Of a stretch of DNA of 64,000 nucleotides, positions 17,353 through 59,001 are shown piece by piece. The position numbers and the translations under genes were made by a program. Below the pieces are notes generated by a model. That model did no database searches and was not told the DNA's origin. It saw nothing but the letters and a program-made list of their open reading frames with translations. Source of the DNA: Phellopilus nigrolimitatus (Eukaryota; Basidiomycota; Agaricomycetes; Hymenochaetales; Hymenochaetaceae). Numbering within the stretch: position 1 is the first letter of the stretch; every line of letters begins with the position of its first letter. The stretch lies in assembly GCA_021029095.1 (NCBI GenBank), contig JAJOHG010000137.1:1-64000 (forward strand), written 5' to 3'.

Positions 17353-17362
17353 CTCCCCCTCA
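17353..17362 (-). promoter_or_regulatory. polypurine tract (plus-strand primer)
   Basis: On the element's strand a purine run (GAGGGGGAG) abuts the 3' LTR. It overlaps the last codon and stop of gag-pol, whose stop is at 17360-17362, so coding and priming functions share bases. Confidence 0.85.
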
Positions 17363-20300
17363 AGTCGAGAGGAGTCCGAGCGCGGCCGCGAAGTGCTTGA
17401 CCTTGAACGAAGGCAGCGGTTTCGTGAGCGCGTCGGCGACCATGTCGGCGGTCGGGCAGTACGTTAGCTTGATCGAGCCGTTTTCGCAGACCCAGTGCAG
17501 GAAGTGGTATCGGATGTCAATGTGTTTCGTGCGCGCGTGGTACTGGTGGTCTTTTGTGAGCGCGATCGCGGACTGGTTGTCCGAGAAAAGAGTAGTCGGT
17601 CCGTCAATCGGTGCGAAGAGTTGTTTAATGAGTTGTCGGAGCCAAATCGCCTCCTTCGCGGCGTGCGTCGCCGCGACGTATTCGCTCTCGGTCGTCGAGA
17701 GCGAAACGATCTCCTGTCGTTTAGAGTACCAAGAAACGGCTCCGCCGTCAATTAAAAATGCGTTACCTGAGATCGCGCGCCGGTCCTCCTGCATGCTCCC
17801 ATCCGCGTCCGCGTACCCCTTCATTCCGCCATCGCCAGCATCTCCGGTTCCTCCGTACGTGAGCCGAAGGTTTCGCGTACCCTTCAGGTAGCGAAAGAGA
17901 CGCTTGACGGCTTCCCAGTGCACGGGACCGGGGTCGTTCGAGAATCGCGAGAGGAGTGTCACCCCGAATGCGGTGTCCGGTCGCGTCGCCAGTGCCGCGT
18001 ACATCACCGAGCCGAGCGCTTCGCGGTACGGTGCATTGCGCATCAAGGCGCGGTCCTGCGCGGTTTTCGGCCCCTGCTGGCTATGCAGGCGGATGTTCGG
18101 GTCCATGGGCGACGAGGCGGGTTTGAGTTCTTCGAAGTTGAACCGAGCGAGGATAGACGAGATATAAGCCGATTGCGACAGCGAAAGTGTTTTTGCGTCG
18201 CGGTTTCGCTGGACTTCGATCCCGAGCAGCCAGTGCAGAGGGCCGAGGTCCGTGACCTCGACATAGCGAGCGAGACCGGACTTGAGTGCAGACACGAGCG
18301 CAGTGGTGGTAGCCGCGATCGTACAGTCGTCGACATGCACGACGACAATAGTCACGTCACGGCCTTCGTGACGAAAAAACACGGCTTGATCCACGTCACA
18401 GCGAGACAGGCCGAGCTCGTCGACAAAGATCCAGGTCAGCTTCTGGTACCACCTTCGTCCACTCTGCTTCAAGCCGTACAATGTCTTTCGCAACCTCAAG
18501 ACTTTTGTGCCCGCGTCGCGCGGTGCATATCCGGGCGGGTGGCGCATGTAAATGACCTCGTCGGCTTCGAGTTCTCCGTTAAGGTAAGCTCCTTTAATAT
18601 CGACTTGCTCGAGCTCCAGGTCCAATCGCGCGGCCATTGCGAGAGTCGCTCGAATCGATGCGAGCTTCGCGACGGGCGCGAAAGTGTCAAAATAATCGAT
18701 TCCCTGCACCTGGCTGAATCCCTGCGCGACAAGTCGAGCTTTGCGGCGGACGACGTTTCCGGCCGCATCCCTCTTGATCTTGAACACCCACTTCGATCCG
18801 ACAACATTGGCACCTGCCGGGGGCTCCTCCAGCACCCACGTACCAGCCGAATGAAGTGTCTCCAACTCCTCGTTGATCGCGCGCTCCCATTCCGACCATT
18901 CTGGGAGGCGCTTCGCTTCTGCGAGCGATCGCGGTTCAAGTCCCTCGGCCTCCTCCATCGCGGCCGAAAACTCATACTCCTCGTCGTAATCGTCCTCGAT
19001 CACCTGGTTCGCCGATTCCTCATCCTGCTCGACAAACTCGCGCATCGAGCGCATTCCTCGCGGGAGGGGACCATCACGGCGCCAGTGCGTCGGCGTTCCT
19101 TCGCCAGCTGCAATGCGACGCTGATAGGCCGACGGCATGCGAACTCGCCGCTCGCGCGGCTCCGGTGCTTGCGCCGGAAGATGAGACGCTGCTGGTCTCT
19201 CCGGGGCAGGCTGCGGCTCTTCCGCTGGCGGATCGCTCGTCGCTTCGGCGGGATCGGCGGGTCCCTGGGGATTTTCGGCGGGTGGTGGCGGCGCTGGCGG
19301 ATTTGCGGGCAGTGTCGGTGTCGGTGTCGCGATCGGCGGTGAGTTTTTCGAAGTCGTTTCGTTTTCTACTCCGCCATCAAGTTCCTCCCCCTCGAGACGA
19401 CTCGAAATGTCTCCAGGGTCGAAATAAACATTACGCTCGACACTAATGCTTTTCTTTTCCGGCCAATAAATGCGCTGTCCGTTCGACGTCTTGTCGAAAC
19501 CCATCCACCGTCCCTCTCGCGCGCGCGGTTCGAGCTTCGAGCCCGAATCGTCGTGAACCCAACACTTGGATCCCCATACGCGCAGTCCGCGAAGATCGGG
19601 CTTCCGCCCGGTCATCGCTTCGTGCGGCGTCTTGTCCTTCAGTGCGCGCGTCGGGGTTCGGTTTTTCAACCAAACAGCGTGTCCAGCCGCCTCCGCCCAC
19701 AAAAACTTCGGCATGCGGCTCGCGTGCAACATTGCGCGAACCTTCTCGAGAATCGTCCGGTTCAGCCGCTCCGCGACGCCGTTGTGTTGCGGTGTGTCGT
19801 GAACGGTAAGTTTCTGCTTCGTACCTTTACTATTCAAGTACATGACGAACTCCTTGCCAGTGTACTCGCCACCGCGATCCGAGTGAAGAACTTGGATCTT
19901 AGCGTTCATTTGCGTTTCGGCCCAAGCTTCGAAGTGTCGGTAAGATCGAAAAACATCACTTTTCTTCTTCAGCAGATACAATTTCGTCACGCGCGTCGCA
20001 TCGTCCGTGAAAGAGACGTAGTAGTGTCGCCCGCCGAGCGAGCGAGTCGGCGACGGTCCCCAAACATCGGTATGGACCTCGCCTCCGAATTGCGCAGCGC
20101 GCTCTCCCTCTCGTTCACGCGCGATCATGCGGCGGGTCGCTTTCGCGTATACGCAGGACTCGCAAAGTGTTGGTGTCGGCCCGGAGGTGTCGAGGCGCAA
20201 CCCCGTAACCCACCCATTTCGAACTAACCGCTCCGCGACCTTGGGCGAAACGTGGCCCATGCGAGCATGCAGCTCCATGAGGCTCAATGTCTCCTCGGCC

Positions 20301-21892
20301 GCATTCGCTGCATCGCGCAGCGTCGGGTCGGCCGACTCGTGCGCGAACCGATACAGGCCTTTACTCGAGCGCAAAACCTCGCCAATACAATTTCCGGCCG
20401 CGTCACGAAGTACACACTTGTTTCCGCCGAATACTGCGAAGTAGGCTGCGCGATCGAGCGCGCCGACGGACACAAGTGTATATCCGACTTCGGGGGAATA
20501 AAGGACTTCGGTAAGTGTCAATTTCGTCGGCGTCTCGCCGTTCGGGAGTTCGATCGCTAAATCTCCCTCTCCCACAGCGTGGAAGGTTTGCTTGTTCGCG
20601 GCGTGCAAATTCTTCGGCGGCGTCTCGACAAAGTTCGTGAAGTCTTCGCGGTACGGCGAAATATGACGCGTAGAGCCCGAATCGAGGATCGCGCGACGTG
20701 CATCGTCGGTTTCGCGAAGGTGAATAACCTGCGCGATCTCCTCTTCGTCTGTATCGTCTTCGCTCACGTCGCTCTCGGGGTACGAGCTCGAAGGCTCGTC
20801 GTCCTCGTCATCGGACCAGAAATCGGCCGGCTCTTCATCTTCGCTATCAGACAGGTCGACTAAGTCGGGCATCAAGCCCATGTCATCATCGTCGTCCTCG
20901 TCGTCCGACGAATCCCAGGCCGCATTACAGCAGTCCCATACGCCGTCCGAGTCCGAGTCGACAGCCGCATTCGCGCTGTCCTTCGGCCTCTCCTTGGCCG
21001 ACGGTTTTCTCGGCTTCGGGCACTTCGCGCGAAGGTGCCCGGTCTCGCCACAGTTCCAGCAGGCTCCGCGCGGCTTCGGCTCGCTTTTCTGCTTGTTTCT
21101 CGGCACCGTACTGACATGCAACGCCTCGTCCTTCTCTTTAGGTCCTCGCGCGGGTTCCTTTCGCTTCGCAAGTCGCTCGCGTTTCTGGCGATCGGCCTCG
21201 TCCGAAATAATATGGATCAAGACTTCGGGGTCGACTTCGCGGAGCGAGGCGATCTGCGCTTCGGTGAGCGGCTGCGCTGTGATTGTCGCGACGTTTCGCG
21301 CCGCGATCTCCGCCGAGGTCAGCTGCGCGGACGCGAATGTCGCCAGTCGGTTCGGGATGGCGGTAATAATTGTCGAACGAAAATCCTTGTCGGATATATC
21401 AACACCCGACTGCGCCAGCGTCTCGCGGCGCATGCGCAAGTCGCTCAGGAACTCGCGGATGTCGGCATCCCCGGGGCAACGTGCCTCGAGAAATTCGGTG
21501 CGTAGCGAAGTCTGCGCGAAAGCGGACTTCGATGTAAACTCACGTACCACTGCGCTCCAGCGCGCGGTACAATCCGCCAGGTTTCCGACCTGGATGAGGG
21601 TCGAATCGGCCAGGCGCTGGGACAACAGATACATCGCGATATCCTCGTCCTTATCCCAGGCCTCTTGGCGCGCGTCAATGTCGTCGTTGGGATCGGCTTG
21701 ACCATTCGCTACCGCAGCAGTAGCGACAGCAGCAGCAACCGGCTCGGGGCGAATCGACGATCCGTCAAAATGCCCCCACTTTCCTTTCGCCTTCACGGCA
21801 GCCTGGAAACGCATCCGGTATATCACCCAGTTCGCGCCGCTCGTCGCGAGCTTCGGAACTGAAGTAGGGAGGGTGTCGTGCGAGCTAGACAT
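17360..21892 (-). CDS. copia gag-pol polyprotein
   Basis: 1510 residues in one frame with no frameshift. Gag occupies about residues 1-300 and ends in a CCHC zinc knuckle, CWNCGETGHLRAKCP, near residue 285. An acidic linker follows. The aspartic protease active site is ILDSGSTRHISPY near 405. The GAG-pre-integrase zinc motif is HARMGHVS with CESCVYAK. The integrase core has HTDVWGPSP, SFTDDATR, LHSDRGGEYTGKEF and QHNGVAERLNRTILE (DDE). A Pro/Ala-rich linker leads to reverse transcriptase: SKWVFKIKRDAAGN, DYFDTFAPVAKLASIR, QVDIKGAYLNGEL, and the catalytic VVVHVDDCTIA, i.e. HVDD where YVDD is usual. RNase H has KGYADADGSMQED and SLSTTESEYVAA. All catalytic residues looked for are present. Confidence 0.97.
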   Translation of the reverse strand: MSSSHDTLPTSVPKLATSGANWVIYRMRFQAAVKAKGKWGHFDGSSIRPEPVAAAVATAAVANGQADPNDDIDARQEAWDKDEDIAMYLLSQRLADSTLIQVGNLADCTARWSAVVREFTSKSAFAQTSLRTEFLEARCPGDADIREFLSDLRMRRETLAQSGVDISDKDFRSTIITAIPNRLATFASAQLTSAEIAARNVATITAQPLTEAQIASLREVDPEVLIHIISDEADRQKRERLAKRKEPARGPKEKDEALHVSTVPRNKQKSEPKPRGACWNCGETGHLRAKCPKPRKPSAKERPKDSANAAVDSDSDGVWDCCNAAWDSSDDEDDDDDMGLMPDLVDLSDSEDEEPADFWSDDEDDEPSSSYPESDVSEDDTDEEEIAQVIHLRETDDARRAILDSGSTRHISPYREDFTNFVETPPKNLHAANKQTFHAVGEGDLAIELPNGETPTKLTLTEVLYSPEVGYTLVSVGALDRAAYFAVFGGNKCVLRDAAGNCIGEVLRSSKGLYRFAHESADPTLRDAANAAEETLSLMELHARMGHVSPKVAERLVRNGWVTGLRLDTSGPTPTLCESCVYAKATRRMIAREREGERAAQFGGEVHTDVWGPSPTRSLGGRHYYVSFTDDATRVTKLYLLKKKSDVFRSYRHFEAWAETQMNAKIQVLHSDRGGEYTGKEFVMYLNSKGTKQKLTVHDTPQHNGVAERLNRTILEKVRAMLHASRMPKFLWAEAAGHAVWLKNRTPTRALKDKTPHEAMTGRKPDLRGLRVWGSKCWVHDDSGSKLEPRAREGRWMGFDKTSNGQRIYWPEKKSISVERNVYFDPGDISSRLEGEELDGGVENETTSKNSPPIATPTPTLPANPPAPPPPAENPQGPADPAEATSDPPAEEPQPAPERPAASHLPAQAPEPRERRVRMPSAYQRRIAAGEGTPTHWRRDGPLPRGMRSMREFVEQDEESANQVIEDDYDEEYEFSAAMEEAEGLEPRSLAEAKRLPEWSEWERAINEELETLHSAGTWVLEEPPAGANVVGSKWVFKIKRDAAGNVVRRKARLVAQGFSQVQGIDYFDTFAPVAKLASIRATLAMAARLDLELEQVDIKGAYLNGELEADEVIYMRHPPGYAPRDAGTKVLRLRKTLYGLKQSGRRWYQKLTWIFVDELGLSRCDVDQAVFFRHEGRDVTIVVVHVDDCTIAATTTALVSALKSGLARYVEVTDLGPLHWLLGIEVQRNRDAKTLSLSQSAYISSILARFNFEELKPASSPMDPNIRLHSQQGPKTAQDRALMRNAPYREALGSVMYAALATRPDTAFGVTLLSRFSNDPGPVHWEAVKRLFRYLKGTRNLRLTYGGTGDAGDGGMKGYADADGSMQEDRRAISGNAFLIDGGAVSWYSKRQEIVSLSTTESEYVAATHAAKEAIWLRQLIKQLFAPIDGPTTLFSDNQSAIALTKDHQYHARTKHIDIRYHFLHWVCENGSIKLTYCPTADMVADALTKPLPSFKVKHFAAALGLLST

Positions 21893-21954
21893 GAGTGGCG
21901 AAATTTGTGTATGTCGTACAAAATAAAAATTCGGCTTCGCTCAGTGGCTAGCAA

Positions 21955-54922: not shown

Positions 54923-55480
54923 CCCAATGAAAAATCACTCGGGTGAAATCGAATTAGATCGCATGATTTCGGATTAATCGACCTGGTCCAATTTCGCAAT
55001 ATATTTTAAGAATATCACGATATATTTATTGTCAGAATGAGTGCGAATGAGTCAAAACGGATTATTCGAGCAGGCCCGTTTTCATTCAACAGAATCTATA
55101 GCAAAATCCCGCAAAATCGTGTCATTTCTATTCATGTAGTGTATTTTATCGGGCGGTATCGAATTAAATCTGACAGTTCATCACACTATTTTTCCTTTTA
55201 TAAAAGCGAATCAAATAGTATATTGGCTGTAGGGCATACCACGAGTCCATCCGTGGGTTGACCCGGACCCGTTTGGCGGGTCACCCGTGACGAAAAAACC
55301 TCGACCCGGACCCGGCTTGACCTGGACCCGTTGGGACACGGATCTACGGGTCACCAAATTCCCACGGTTCCAGGTCACGGAGGTCACGGGTTTGTTCACG
55401 TCTCCCTGCGGGTCTTAACATTGTCCGACTGAACTTTTTCTTTCGCTGTGTTCATATCCGCATCGGTGTCTCTCTTACAG

Positions 55481-55787
55481 CTGCCGTCGCTCGTCACATC
55501 TACCTGCGCAAAAGCATCGGCATCGGCGCACTCTCGAAACTGCACCGTGGACGCAACCGCCACGGGAACCGGCCAAGCCACCACGCGGACGCGAGCGCGA
55601 GCGTGCAGCGCAAGGTCTGCCAATCGCTCGAGAAGATCGGCGTGCTCGAGCTGAGCGACAATGGCGGCCGGCACATCTCGCAGGACGGCCAGCGCGATCT
55701 CGACTGCATCACGACCACCGTCGTCGAGTGGCGCGCGAGGCAGAGGAGGACGAGGGCGAGGATGAGGATGAAGAGGCGGAGGAGTGA
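55481..55787 (+). pseudogene. captured ribosomal protein S19 exon
   Basis: After a retained acceptor (TCTCTTACAG) the frame reads AAVARHIYLRKSIGIGALSK, LHRGRNRHGNRPSHHADASA, SVQRKVCQSLEKIGVLELSD and NGGRHISQDGQRDLD, unmistakably the C-terminal half of eukaryotic 40S subunit protein S19. Shortly after, a one-base loss shifts the frame; the original acidic tail is still visible in the next frame (EAEEDEGEDEDEEAEE) with its stop at 55785-55787. The N-terminal exons are absent. The intact RPS19 must lie elsewhere in the genome. Confidence 0.9.
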
Positions 55788-55959
55788 GGGTCGGCGCGTG
55801 GACAGGGCGCAGTGTGGTGATGTTGCGCCTGCATCTCTCGAATGTCACCAAGTACGCTCATCAGCCCCACTCAATCAACGTCGCCGACGCGAACATGTTG
55901 CAGTGCCACCTCGACATGCGCTTTGCGCAGCTCAAAGGTCGTCCCGAAGGCACACCCCA

Positions 55960-57175
55960 CGAAGATCGTCGGGTTCTCTCACCGTCGCCAACGGGTCCTG
56001 GAACACCCGCGATGTGCGTTTCCACTGGCCTGCGCACCTTACTCGCGCCGCCATTATCGTTCTTGCAGACGACAGGCGCGAGGACTTCAAGGATTCTTGG
56101 ACCTGGCACTGTGCGGTGTCGTGACGCGGTTCCTGGCGACATGCCGGGCGGGCGGGATGCAGGTTGACGACGTGCTCCCCCCGCTATTTTTCGTGCGGCT
56201 CCCGCAAGCAAACCCACGCGACCCATTGCGTGCCGCGGCGATCGATGTGATCGAGAACGAAATTAGGACACTCCCTGGGCGTCCGAACACCAAGCTTGGC
56301 GGCGCAAACCACCAGCTCGATGCAAACTCCATGCGCTGGCTCAAGAACAGAATGCTCGTCGGAATGGGCTCGACACACCCTGGCTTTGGCTGCGTAAAAG
56401 GAACACCATCGATCGCCGCTGTCGTTGCGAGCTGCGATGAGGAGTTCATGCTCTATCCCGCAAGTCTTGGCCTCCAAGAACACGGAAATGAGGCGAATGA
56501 TGTCTTTGATTTTTTATCATTATATTCTGACAGTTCTACCAAAACAGATGATTATCGGGGTCAAGCAAATGATGATCGAGCGCCTGAATGAATATTTGAA
56601 GCACATGAAGTCCCTTCCCGAGCGCGTCGTCGTGTTCTGCGGCGGGGTCTCCGACGACCAATTCAAACACGTACTCACCCACGAGCTCCCGGAGATCAAG
56701 GCAGCGTTTCGCTCTTTCAAGGGCTACAGCCCCAAGCTCACCATCGCGATCTGCGGGAAGCGGCACCGTACGCACTTCTACCCGATGAGGCCCGAGCAGG
56801 CGGATAAGACTTCGAACACGAAGGCCGGGACGCTCGTCGACCGGGGCGTCACTGCGGTATATAACTTCGATTTCTTCCTGCAGGCGCACGCGGGGCAGCA
56901 AGGCACGGTTCGTGTGACGCACTATACGGTGATATTCGACGAGAACCGGTTCTCCGTGGACGATATCCAGCAGGGCGCGCACAATGCGAGTTACCTGTGG
57001 GCGCCCGCGACGAAGAGTGTGCGGCTGGTCCCACCGGCGTACGCGGCGGAACGAGCGCGCCAGCGTGCGCGGCTTTACCTGCACGATATCCTTCCGCCTT
57101 TCCCGGGCAGCAAGGAGAGTATTGTGGGGCCCGGGTGTCCATGAGAATCTTCGGGGCTCCATGTTTTACCTGTAA
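55960..57175 (+). pseudogene. captured Argonaute fragment (Mid/PIWI), degenerate
   Basis: Begins around VANGSWNTRDVRFHWPAHL and AAIIVLADDRREDFKD (linker/Mid), shifts frame, then VTRFLATCRAGGMQVDDVLP. It jumps from IRTLPGRPN straight to TKLGGANHQLD, lacking about 60 residues of Mid. PIWI follows: MLVGMGSTHPGFGCVKGTPS, VVASCDEEFMLYPASLGLQE, an intron near 56500-56547, then PERVVVFCGGVSDDQF, LTIAICGKRHRTHFYP, TLVDRGVTAVYNFDFFLQAH and VTHYTVIFDENRF. The Argonaute C terminus WGPGVHENLRGSMFYL is in another frame, with its stop at 57175. The first two catalytic Asp positions (normally D in GxDVTHP and RDG) are both Gly. At least three frame changes. PAZ and N domains are absent. Confidence 0.9.
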
Positions 57176-57580
57176 GTTGCGACAAGAGGAGAAATAGTAA
57201 GAATTTAAATAAGAAAGTGGATACGTGTTTCTGTGTATATTGAAATCTGGTAGAGTATTACATGTATATGAGACGTACGATTACTTTTAGTGTCGTAGCT
57301 CGACACTCTTCCTGAGTCATCCTGGTCTTTTTTTCCCTGGTGCTAGCGTGTCTTGAATCTCCAATTCGGCTTCCCACTCTGTGGATGTCGTGTACCCGGG
57401 CCAAAGTCTAAACACTTATGAACTACCCGCGGGTACCAGAAAAATGCAAATCCTCGACCCGGACCCGTGACAAACCGTTTCCCACGGATCACCCGTCAAC
57501 GGGTGATCCGTGAATACGGATCTGCAGTCCGGGTCGGGTCACGGGTACCCACGGGTTCCAGGGACTCGTGGTATGCCCTA

Positions 57581-57588
57581 ATTGGCTG
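57581..57588. repeat. target-site duplication ATTGGCTG of the nested hAT-like element, right copy
   Basis: Identical to 55222-55229. Eight base pairs, directly outside the inverted repeats. Confidence 0.9.
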
Positions 57589-57591
57589 TAC

Positions 57592-58740
57592 GCTACGCTA
57601 AAACATGAAAAACACAGGTCTCCGTGTCGCCGAGCTGCAGCCGGCTAGCGAACGCCAGGTTGTTCTGCCGCTTCTCCTCTGCACAAAGCGGCTCTCTTTC
57701 AGCAGGACAGCCCTGATTTGCAGCGAGCGCATTTGGGGTTCTGCTTACCGGCCTGCACGGCGAGTTTCACGAGCCCGGCCTGTCGCCGATCGCGAGGAGC
57801 AGGAGCATGAGCGTGCTGAGGTCTCCCGCGCGAGGTCGCGGACGGCCTTCCACTTCGTCTCTGCGTCGGTGTTGGGGATGGTACGAGCGATCTCGAGTGC
57901 CGCATCGAGGTCGTCGAGCTGCAGCGAGAGGTCGAACTTGTGGTCCGGGTCGGTCGTCACTTCGAGTGCCAGTTCCCGCAAGTCTAAGTAATTGGAAATA
58001 ATACTGTGAGTAATGCGTTCATCAGAATCTAATTCATACTCTTTACCTCTGGCTTCAAGAATCGAGCGACCTTGTCCCGCTGCTCCTTGGGTATCGGCGG
58101 CAGGATTTCGGCTAGTGTCGCATCGAAGGATGGCCAATTGACATTCGGTGAGGTTCAGCGAGAGGGAGTATCTGCAAATCCTGACTTCCTCGTCCGCGAG
58201 ATACACGCGGTTGTGAGTGGGGATATAGCCTAGGAGATACATGGGGCATATCAGAGCATTAGCGAGCGAAATTATAATTTAGAGTGTATTCGCGCACAGG
58301 GAAGTGGACGCGCTGGCCCTCGGGAGTCTCGACGTCTACAGCGGCCTGCAGATTCGCGGAGAGCACATCGGTATTGCGCGTGTAGACAAGCTTCCCGGCG
58401 GGACCATGCTGAGCGCGGGCTCGTCGCAGCCGGGCTTGACGATGACAACGCCCTCGTCGAAGCCGAACACAATGTTGTTTGCGTGCGGGAGCATGGCGTC
58501 GCACTACGCGCGCGCGGGCACGTAGCTGAGCATGTTCTTGAGGCGGTACGTGCTGCTGTTCCAGAGGTTGGCGGCGAGCATCGCCTTTTGCTGCAGAGGT
58601 GGATGGTGGAGAGAAGTCTTGTCGCTAGTCAGTCGAGTGAAAACCGTGAAAATTTTCGGAGGGTAGCGGAGTACGAAACTGAGCACGTGAGTAATGAATC
58701 GAGGAATTGTGCACATGAGACTCAGAGCACAAGTTCGAGC
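57592..58740 (-). pseudogene. captured COPI beta-prime (COPB2/Sec27) gene fragment
   Basis: Minus-strand pieces in gene order: LWNSSTYRLKNMLSYVPARA; VFGFDEGVVIVKPGCDEPAL; NTDVLSANLQAAVDVETPEGQ; YIPTHNRVYLADEEVRICRY; AILEARGKE-type SILEARGKE; RELALEVTTDPDHKFDLSLQ; LDDLDAALEIARTIPNTDAE; ETKWKAVRD; and QNNLAFAS-RLQLGDTETCV at the end nearest 57600. These are the last WD40 blades and the following coatomer WD-associated region of Sec27/COPB2, a COPI vesicle-coat subunit. Several frame changes and stops occur and both ends of the gene are missing. It lies wholly inside the outer transposon, in antisense to the RPS19/Argonaute cargo. Confidence 0.88.
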
Positions 58741-59001
58741 AACTGATTGACATGTTGCGACGACTTCATTTTACATAAGCCGAGTGTGCAGTTCGTTGGG
58801 CGAAAATATTTTTATTTAGCCATTTTTCTCGTTCGTGTCGATCTCCTGAGCAAGTTGCAACGGAAAATCAGACGTCTAAATTGAGTCGCAACACAGCCTT
58901 TGAAATACCATCCGAGTTCACTCGATTTGAATCAAATACATAAGATTGTCTACGATCTGGTACAATACGGTTCGATTTCACCCGAGTGATTTTTCATTGG
59001 G

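Follow-up and report, generated by a model that had tools for sequence, protein, structure and literature searches.

The DNA studied here is a 64-kb window of the Phellopilus nigrolimitatus genome, the whole stretch that was analysed, which forms part of contig C43 in an assembly of 635 contigs and 56.4 Mb (contigs are given below as C plus a number). At positions 55230-57580 it contains a 2351-bp element that is very probably a Pack-type, non-autonomous hAT element, and whose interior is, judged from the alignments, a three-gene chimera of RPS19, eIF3a and Argonaute fragments. The element and its immediate flanks comprise the following features.

55222-55229, no strand: left copy of the 8-bp target-site duplication, ATTGGCTG (read from the flank)
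55230-55248, forward strand: left terminal inverted repeat (TIR) of 19 bp, TAGGGCATACCACGAGTCC (19/19 complementary to the right TIR)
55230-55419, forward strand: left subterminal region, rich in ACCCG (common to family members with other interiors)
55428-55825, forward strand: RPS19 fragment comprising half an intron (3' side), the last exon and 3' flank extending beyond the natural stop (alignment and PF01090)
55819-55965, forward strand: eIF3a fragment (96% identical to C83:3394-3540)
55966-57402, forward strand: Argonaute Mid/PIWI fragment plus 3' flank, a pseudogene (alignment and PF02171)
57411-57580, forward strand: right subterminal region, rich in ACCCG (alignment and motif count)
57562-57580, reverse strand: right TIR of 19 bp (19/19 complementary to the left TIR)
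57581-57588, no strand: right copy of the 8-bp target-site duplication, ATTGGCTG (read from the flank)

Perfect inverted 19-mer pairs spanning 300-8000 bp number 14 in the window, and that of the element is the only one with a flanking 8-bp direct repeat; the remaining 13 all belong to a single 31-bp inverted repeat of the repeat that surrounds the element. The outer 360 bp of the element contain 20 copies of the motif ACCCG or CGGGT, compared with 1.1 on average and never more than 6 in 2000 mononucleotide shuffles. No transposase was found in the window element, all but about 16 bp of which is explained by the family ends and by the RPS19, eIF3a and Argonaute matches. The assignment to the Pack type is based on the host gene fragments that lie between the TIRs without a transposase, and that to hAT on the 8-bp target-site duplications, found in the window element as in its family, and on short TIRs shared by an element whose hAT transposase has a C-terminal dimerisation domain. 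The initial annotation, made from the window alone, had already described the perfect 19-bp TIRs, the 8-bp flanking duplication, the ACCCG-rich subterminal repeats, the lack of a transposase and an interior of RPS19 and Argonaute Mid/PIWI sequence, and all of these are borne out.

The same annotation had proposed a genome-wide search for the TIR, and when this was done with up to 3 mismatches allowed, 326 places were matched (160 forward and 166 reverse), against 12 (7 and 5) for the control, indicating that related ends are abundant. The elements considered below are drawn from the TIR matches listed, apart from those in the C606 and C611 length classes. Of 25 TIR pairs whose flanks were read, 23 showed a perfect 8-bp duplication, namely 17 of the 18 nearest pairs, the elements of C57, C112, C255 and C544, and two short elements of C533; wider pairings that span two adjacent elements (C98, C625 and C533) had no matching duplication and were excluded from this count. 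The length classes have about 160-190 bp in common at each end and mostly unrelated interiors, the exceptions being C24/C90 (about 400 bp at 75%) and C20/C38 (225 bp). The left subterminal region of the window element is about 83-93% identical to that of other elements and, by local alignment, 100% identical to a copy on C3. Common ends enclosing different interiors are the anatomy of Pack-type families.

A 6592-bp element at C423:5721-12312 has perfect TIRs that are identical to those of the window element. Splicing of 11 exons in consistent phase, across GT-AG introns, gives a model with one 763-aa frame that matches the hAT dimerisation domain PF05699 (1.5e-9, 37.9 bits versus a cut-off of 21.4); the hATC exon alone scores 20.4 bits, just under that cut-off, so that only the spliced model passes, and a genome-wide PF05699 search returned 7 matches, C423 not among them. 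The model is also similar to Hermes (5.1e-6), to an unnamed protein (50%) and to Antrodiella and Phanerochaete proteins (42-48%). The sequence of its final eight exons is present in two identical copies at C423 and recurs at 81-83% identity on C603, C290, C488, C4 and C622; in other places the identity is 67-71%. These data suggest that the C423 element is a candidate transposase source carrying an apparently intact hAT transposase. This contig has two 6592-bp TIR pairs (C423:5721-12312 and C423:12693-19284), inverted relative to each other and separated by about 380 bp, whose transposase DNA is identical.

The RPS19 fragment of the window (PF01090, E=2.5e-23) is 93-94% identical to its counterparts in sister elements and 92% identical to the host gene on C33 and C633, contigs whose RPS19 regions are 96% identical, colinear over 3.5 kb and represent two haplotypes. 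Of one intron it retains the 3' half, including the acceptor AG at about 55479-55480, and the corresponding inter-exon stretch is whole in the C83, C625, C255 and C544 elements; this retained intron sequence indicates capture at the DNA level. A 1-bp deletion in the last exon, common to the five element copies aligned and found in neither host copy, causes the natural RPS19 stop (TGA 55785-55787) to be bypassed. Two host genes joined in a hAT-like element had been claimed at the outset; the capture holds but the number does not, since a third piece, the 147 bp of eIF3a at 55819-55965, had been missed. The assignment of this piece to eIF3a goes through C83: the two pieces are 96% identical as DNA, and the longer open reading frame (ORF) of the C83 piece matches eIF3a in PDB (5.2e-13). 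When the 51 residues present in the window itself were compared with PDB, eIF3a was not matched, the best hit being BRD4 (E=0.2). A candidate eIF3a host locus, C90:294945-295246, is 91% identical to most of the C83 piece, and further loci are 80-85% identical. The RPS19 and eIF3a pieces join at a GATG microhomology.

The Argonaute fragment (PF02171, E=5.1e-44, with QDE-2 and argonaute-2 as top solved-structure matches) extends from the Mid domain to beyond the stop codon. Intron borders had been reported in both the RPS19 and the Argonaute parts, and while that of RPS19 stands, those of Argonaute were rejected, because the C90 Argonaute gene encodes this region in a single uninterrupted 588-codon frame. 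The likely source being a single exon, the Argonaute part is uninformative on DNA-level capture. That this part is an intact gene was rejected on account of its lesions, which include a 1-bp deletion at about 56095, a 159-bp in-frame deletion at about 56291 with an 11-bp alignment overlap at its site, a +1/-3 change at about 56504 and a 38-bp deletion at about 57120. In a tree restricted to matched parts (20 of the 26 hit stretches, the others covering less than 450 bp), the nearest relatives are C390:58k, at 94%, and the C90 gene, at 93%, both over 559 columns, identity being 89% over about 1.2 kb, and the fork that joins them to the window copy has a support of 88/89, which is not strong. 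The private branch of the window copy measures 0.035 per site, and its private changes fall on the three codon positions as 12/330, 20/336 and 34/302, 34 being synonymous and 32 non-synonymous, a pattern that reads as probable past constraint followed by decay. The captured cargo thus appears decayed, and protein production from it would not be expected; the Argonaute cargo alone is a pseudogene fragment, with no evidence of an attack on silencing. Genome-wide, 73 Piwi-domain matches were found, 28 of them with internal stops, some of which are perhaps introns. The Argonaute family is expanded and partly decaying, with copies on C90, C390, C4, C368 and C27 among others. The capture of a silencing gene, initially thought especially notable, is therefore less special, the source being a multi-copy, partly decayed family.

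RPS19 and eIF3a sequences also occur in the elements of C83, C625 (twice), C255 and C544. Those of C83 and C625 are 2368 bp long and 99.9% identical, with different target duplications, and those of C255 and C544 draw on the same eIF3a locus, but on an adjoining stretch instead of the 147 bp present in the window. Both of the latter have a perfect duplication and an added eIF2alpha piece, recognised in C255 (2897 bp) by PF07541 (1.4e-16) and in C544 (2973 bp) by 92% identity to C255 over 2.5 kb. The RPS19-eIF3a cargo has accordingly moved as a unit in these five elements, and the Argonaute junction was found at one site. Because RPS19 and eIF3a are already joined in the sister elements and the Argonaute junction is seen in the window alone, RPS19-eIF3a reads as the older cargo and Argonaute as a later, private addition, presumably made in the window lineage. 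The sequence C3:3659-4006 is 100% identical to window positions 55230-55577, including a private deletion of the window lineage, and breaks off within RPS19 against TTCGATG, a match to 7 of the 8 bases that flank its TIR on the left; as far as C3:7000, this copy showed no right TIR. Such a one-ended copy may have arisen by gap repair that followed excision and ended early. At C146:63313-63961, diverged RPS19 and eIF3a matches are adjacent, perhaps an older element of the RPS19-eIF3a lineage.

When 11 interior classes were surveyed, short elements of 328-474 bp being excluded, 7 contained host-gene pieces, among them the window element and the RPS19-eIF3a(-eIF2alpha) elements, 1 was the transposase element of C423 and 3 had no host gene that was recognised from the small number of ORFs tried. 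The C38/C379 class contains a CPSase piece (PF25596, 9.4e-39), a copy of which lies outside the family at C2:446541-447743 (95% over a contiguous 1.2 kb), and C20 also carries a CPSase piece (4.1e-8, 1519 bp covered). C90/C98 and their relatives combine WD40 sequence of coatomer beta' (5e-29) with glycyl-tRNA synthetase (GlyRS, 9.7e-17), these pieces being 89-94% identical to several loci; C24/C18 combine a weak coatomer beta' match (8e-4) with FHA (2.5e-11), and C57 carries FHA (6.3e-10). Single further ORFs of C90, C20, C24 and C57 gave no Pfam match, and those of C90, C20 and C24 were then compared with PDB. At C533:136226-139604, two short 463-bp elements, each with a perfect 8-bp duplication, flank an Hsp70 stretch (PF00012, 1.6e-36), possibly a pre-capture arrangement.

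The window element is itself inserted in another repeat.

54923-59001, no strand: surrounding repeat hosting the element (31-bp inverted ends, with the 7-bp duplication CATGAGC outside)

Four related empty sites were identified in paralogues of this repeat (C434, C614, C35 and C83), in which the target is read straight through, with a single ATTGGCTG-like copy showing 1-2 differences and 27-36 bp of the far flank. In the other haplotype, C603, the flanks on both sides are 99% identical and the whole surrounding repeat is absent. The surrounding repeat carries a coatomer beta' piece (PF23953, 4.2e-13; PDB coatomer beta', 2.7e-16) and represents a second, different gene-carrying repeat family. 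Elsewhere in the window, at 17360-21940 on the minus strand, there is an uninterrupted 1526-codon frame that, judged by eye, resembles a Copia-type retrotransposon polyprotein.

A segmental rearrangement or a chance juxtaposition of repeats, without any transposon, could be suggested by the location of the element within a repeat whose pieces recur many times in the genome, but the perfect TIRs and duplication, the approximately 326 family ends, the transposase partner and the four related empty sites leave this explanation with a negligible probability, and it was rejected, the empty sites ruling it out. According to the initial annotation, it would have been indicated by a lack of related ends together with the RPS19-Argonaute junction at the parental loci; the ends are abundant and, among the candidates scored (30/30), the junction is present in the window only. 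The parental loci were sought as well; relatives without the junction were found for RPS19 (C33/C633) and Argonaute (C90/C390), and C90:294945 is a candidate locus for eIF3a, no copy being near-identical. Several observations weigh against a Pack-type hAT element with captured host genes. Near-identical parents were not found, identities being 93-94% (559 columns) or 89% (1.2 kb) for Argonaute and 92% for RPS19. Two of the 25 TIR pairs, C98:4555-5017 and C423, have no perfect duplication, and that of the C423 element, the candidate transposase source, matches at 6/8. The WD40 frame of the C90 element scores higher to a generic WD-repeat protein than to coatomer beta', and no host gene was recognised in C13/C68, C35 and C112 from the few ORFs compared with Pfam (two of C13/C68, one of them cut short, and one each of C35 and C112). 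At the eIF3a/Argonaute junction there is no clear microhomology, and the window copy alone spans it; a 46-bp, 87% match at C257 that crosses the junction by 7 bases was taken as chance. With this junction found once, the window composite may never have moved with Argonaute aboard.

The single occurrence of the junction also favours a course of events, compatible with a Pack-type hAT origin, in which an RPS19-eIF3a element was inserted first and Argonaute was copied in at the site by break repair, so that the composite never transposed; the TIRs and the duplication would appear identical, and single-copy animal Pack-TIRs are reported to arise mostly by gap filling, a route independent of transposition (PMC8277862). 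On the other hand, the 348 bp at the 5' end, private deletion included, recur at 100% on C3, which indicates that the lineage moved recently, and the private branch of 0.035 per site and the several lesions suggest that Argonaute was aboard earlier. These arguments are not decisive, since the C3 copy ends before Argonaute and the source may be an unsampled copy, and we consider addition in place a serious possibility, though not the probable one. It is much less likely that the Argonaute piece is functional, either as a truncated or chimeric Argonaute or as a source of small RNAs dampening the Argonaute genes. A single 267-codon frame does span RPS19 and the first Argonaute residues, and private changes are most frequent at third codon positions (34/302), along a branch that may in part predate the capture, but the frameshifting indels, the 159-bp deletion, the loss near the C-terminus and the 32 non-synonymous versus 34 synonymous private changes make such a function very doubtful.

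For the Pack-type hAT element, the following mechanism may be proposed. A transposase of the C423 type, which looks complete, would bind the TIRs and the ACCCG-rich subterminal repeats and would move the element by cut and paste, yielding 8-bp duplications; the mobility of the family has direct support. Double-strand gaps within the element would be repaired by copying other loci, a route by which host DNA would enter, and capture at the DNA level is likewise directly supported. Template switches at short homologies during gap repair would join the pieces, as suggested by the GATG microhomology between RPS19 and eIF3a and by the C3 remnant. The cargo would build up stepwise, RPS19 and eIF3a being acquired first, then eIF2alpha in one line and Argonaute in that of the window; the stepwise nature of the cargo is directly supported by the elements at hand.

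Gene capture by fungal hAT elements has already been published for histone H3, a correction to the initial interpretation. In the literature searched, the fungal captures encountered were histone H3 in single-gene hAT elements and one ORF borne by Tc1/Mariner (PMC3538342, PMC6710886). Manning et al. described hAT-borne transduplication of histone H3 in Pyrenophora tritici-repentis (PMC3538342), where a host gene likewise lies between the TIRs of an amplified fungal hAT with autonomous and shortened non-autonomous forms; in contrast, the family described here takes up several genes as genomic pieces with intron sequence, forms multi-gene chimeras, has a decayed cargo in the window and resides in a basidiomycete. 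Dhillon et al. reported capture of a histone H3 transcript by a hAT element in Mycosphaerellaceae, in Pseudocercospora fijiensis and relatives (PMC6710886), which is also a multicopy hAT with a housekeeping-gene cargo, but concerns one gene, transcript capture and copies inactivated by repeat-induced point mutation (RIP), as opposed to several genes captured at the DNA level. Plant Pack-TYPE elements, including maize Pack-hAT (PMC8903248), are non-autonomous TIR elements that shuffle genomic coding fragments in a similar way; they are known from plants, and the main text of that paper does not contain the string 'fung'. Animal Pack-TIRs, 208 of 370 of which are hAT-associated (PMC8277862), resemble the present family in their hAT elements, genomic fillers and breakpoint microhomology, but they are mostly single-copy (four multicopy, 1.4%), whereas several cargo types here are multicopy with distinct duplications. 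In the open-access literature searched, which leaves most subscription journals outside its scope, Pack-hAT was met in plants and animals, hAT gene capture in Agaricomycetes was not met, and neither was a Pack-type element of fungi whose cargo is Argonaute, RPS19 or eIF3a. What is new relative to the published cases is one fungal hAT family that serially captures genomic fragments into multi-gene chimeras.

The essential-gene pieces gathered by this family relate to the ribosome, translation initiation, the COPI coat, CPSase, a tRNA synthetase and Argonaute. A wider proposal, that the family is a continuing exon-shuffling machine which fuses pieces of essential genes serially and whose Argonaute copy could feed back on silencing via small RNAs, is unlikely. 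The genome holds likely intermediates of the process, namely elements in which one, two or three genes are recognised, what looks like an aborted repair product, empty sites, two short elements on either side of a host gene and two or more loci for which both haplotypes were assembled, and because these coexist in one genome, the order and the mechanism of capture can be worked out. The genome also represents a natural source of multi-gene chimeric sequence.
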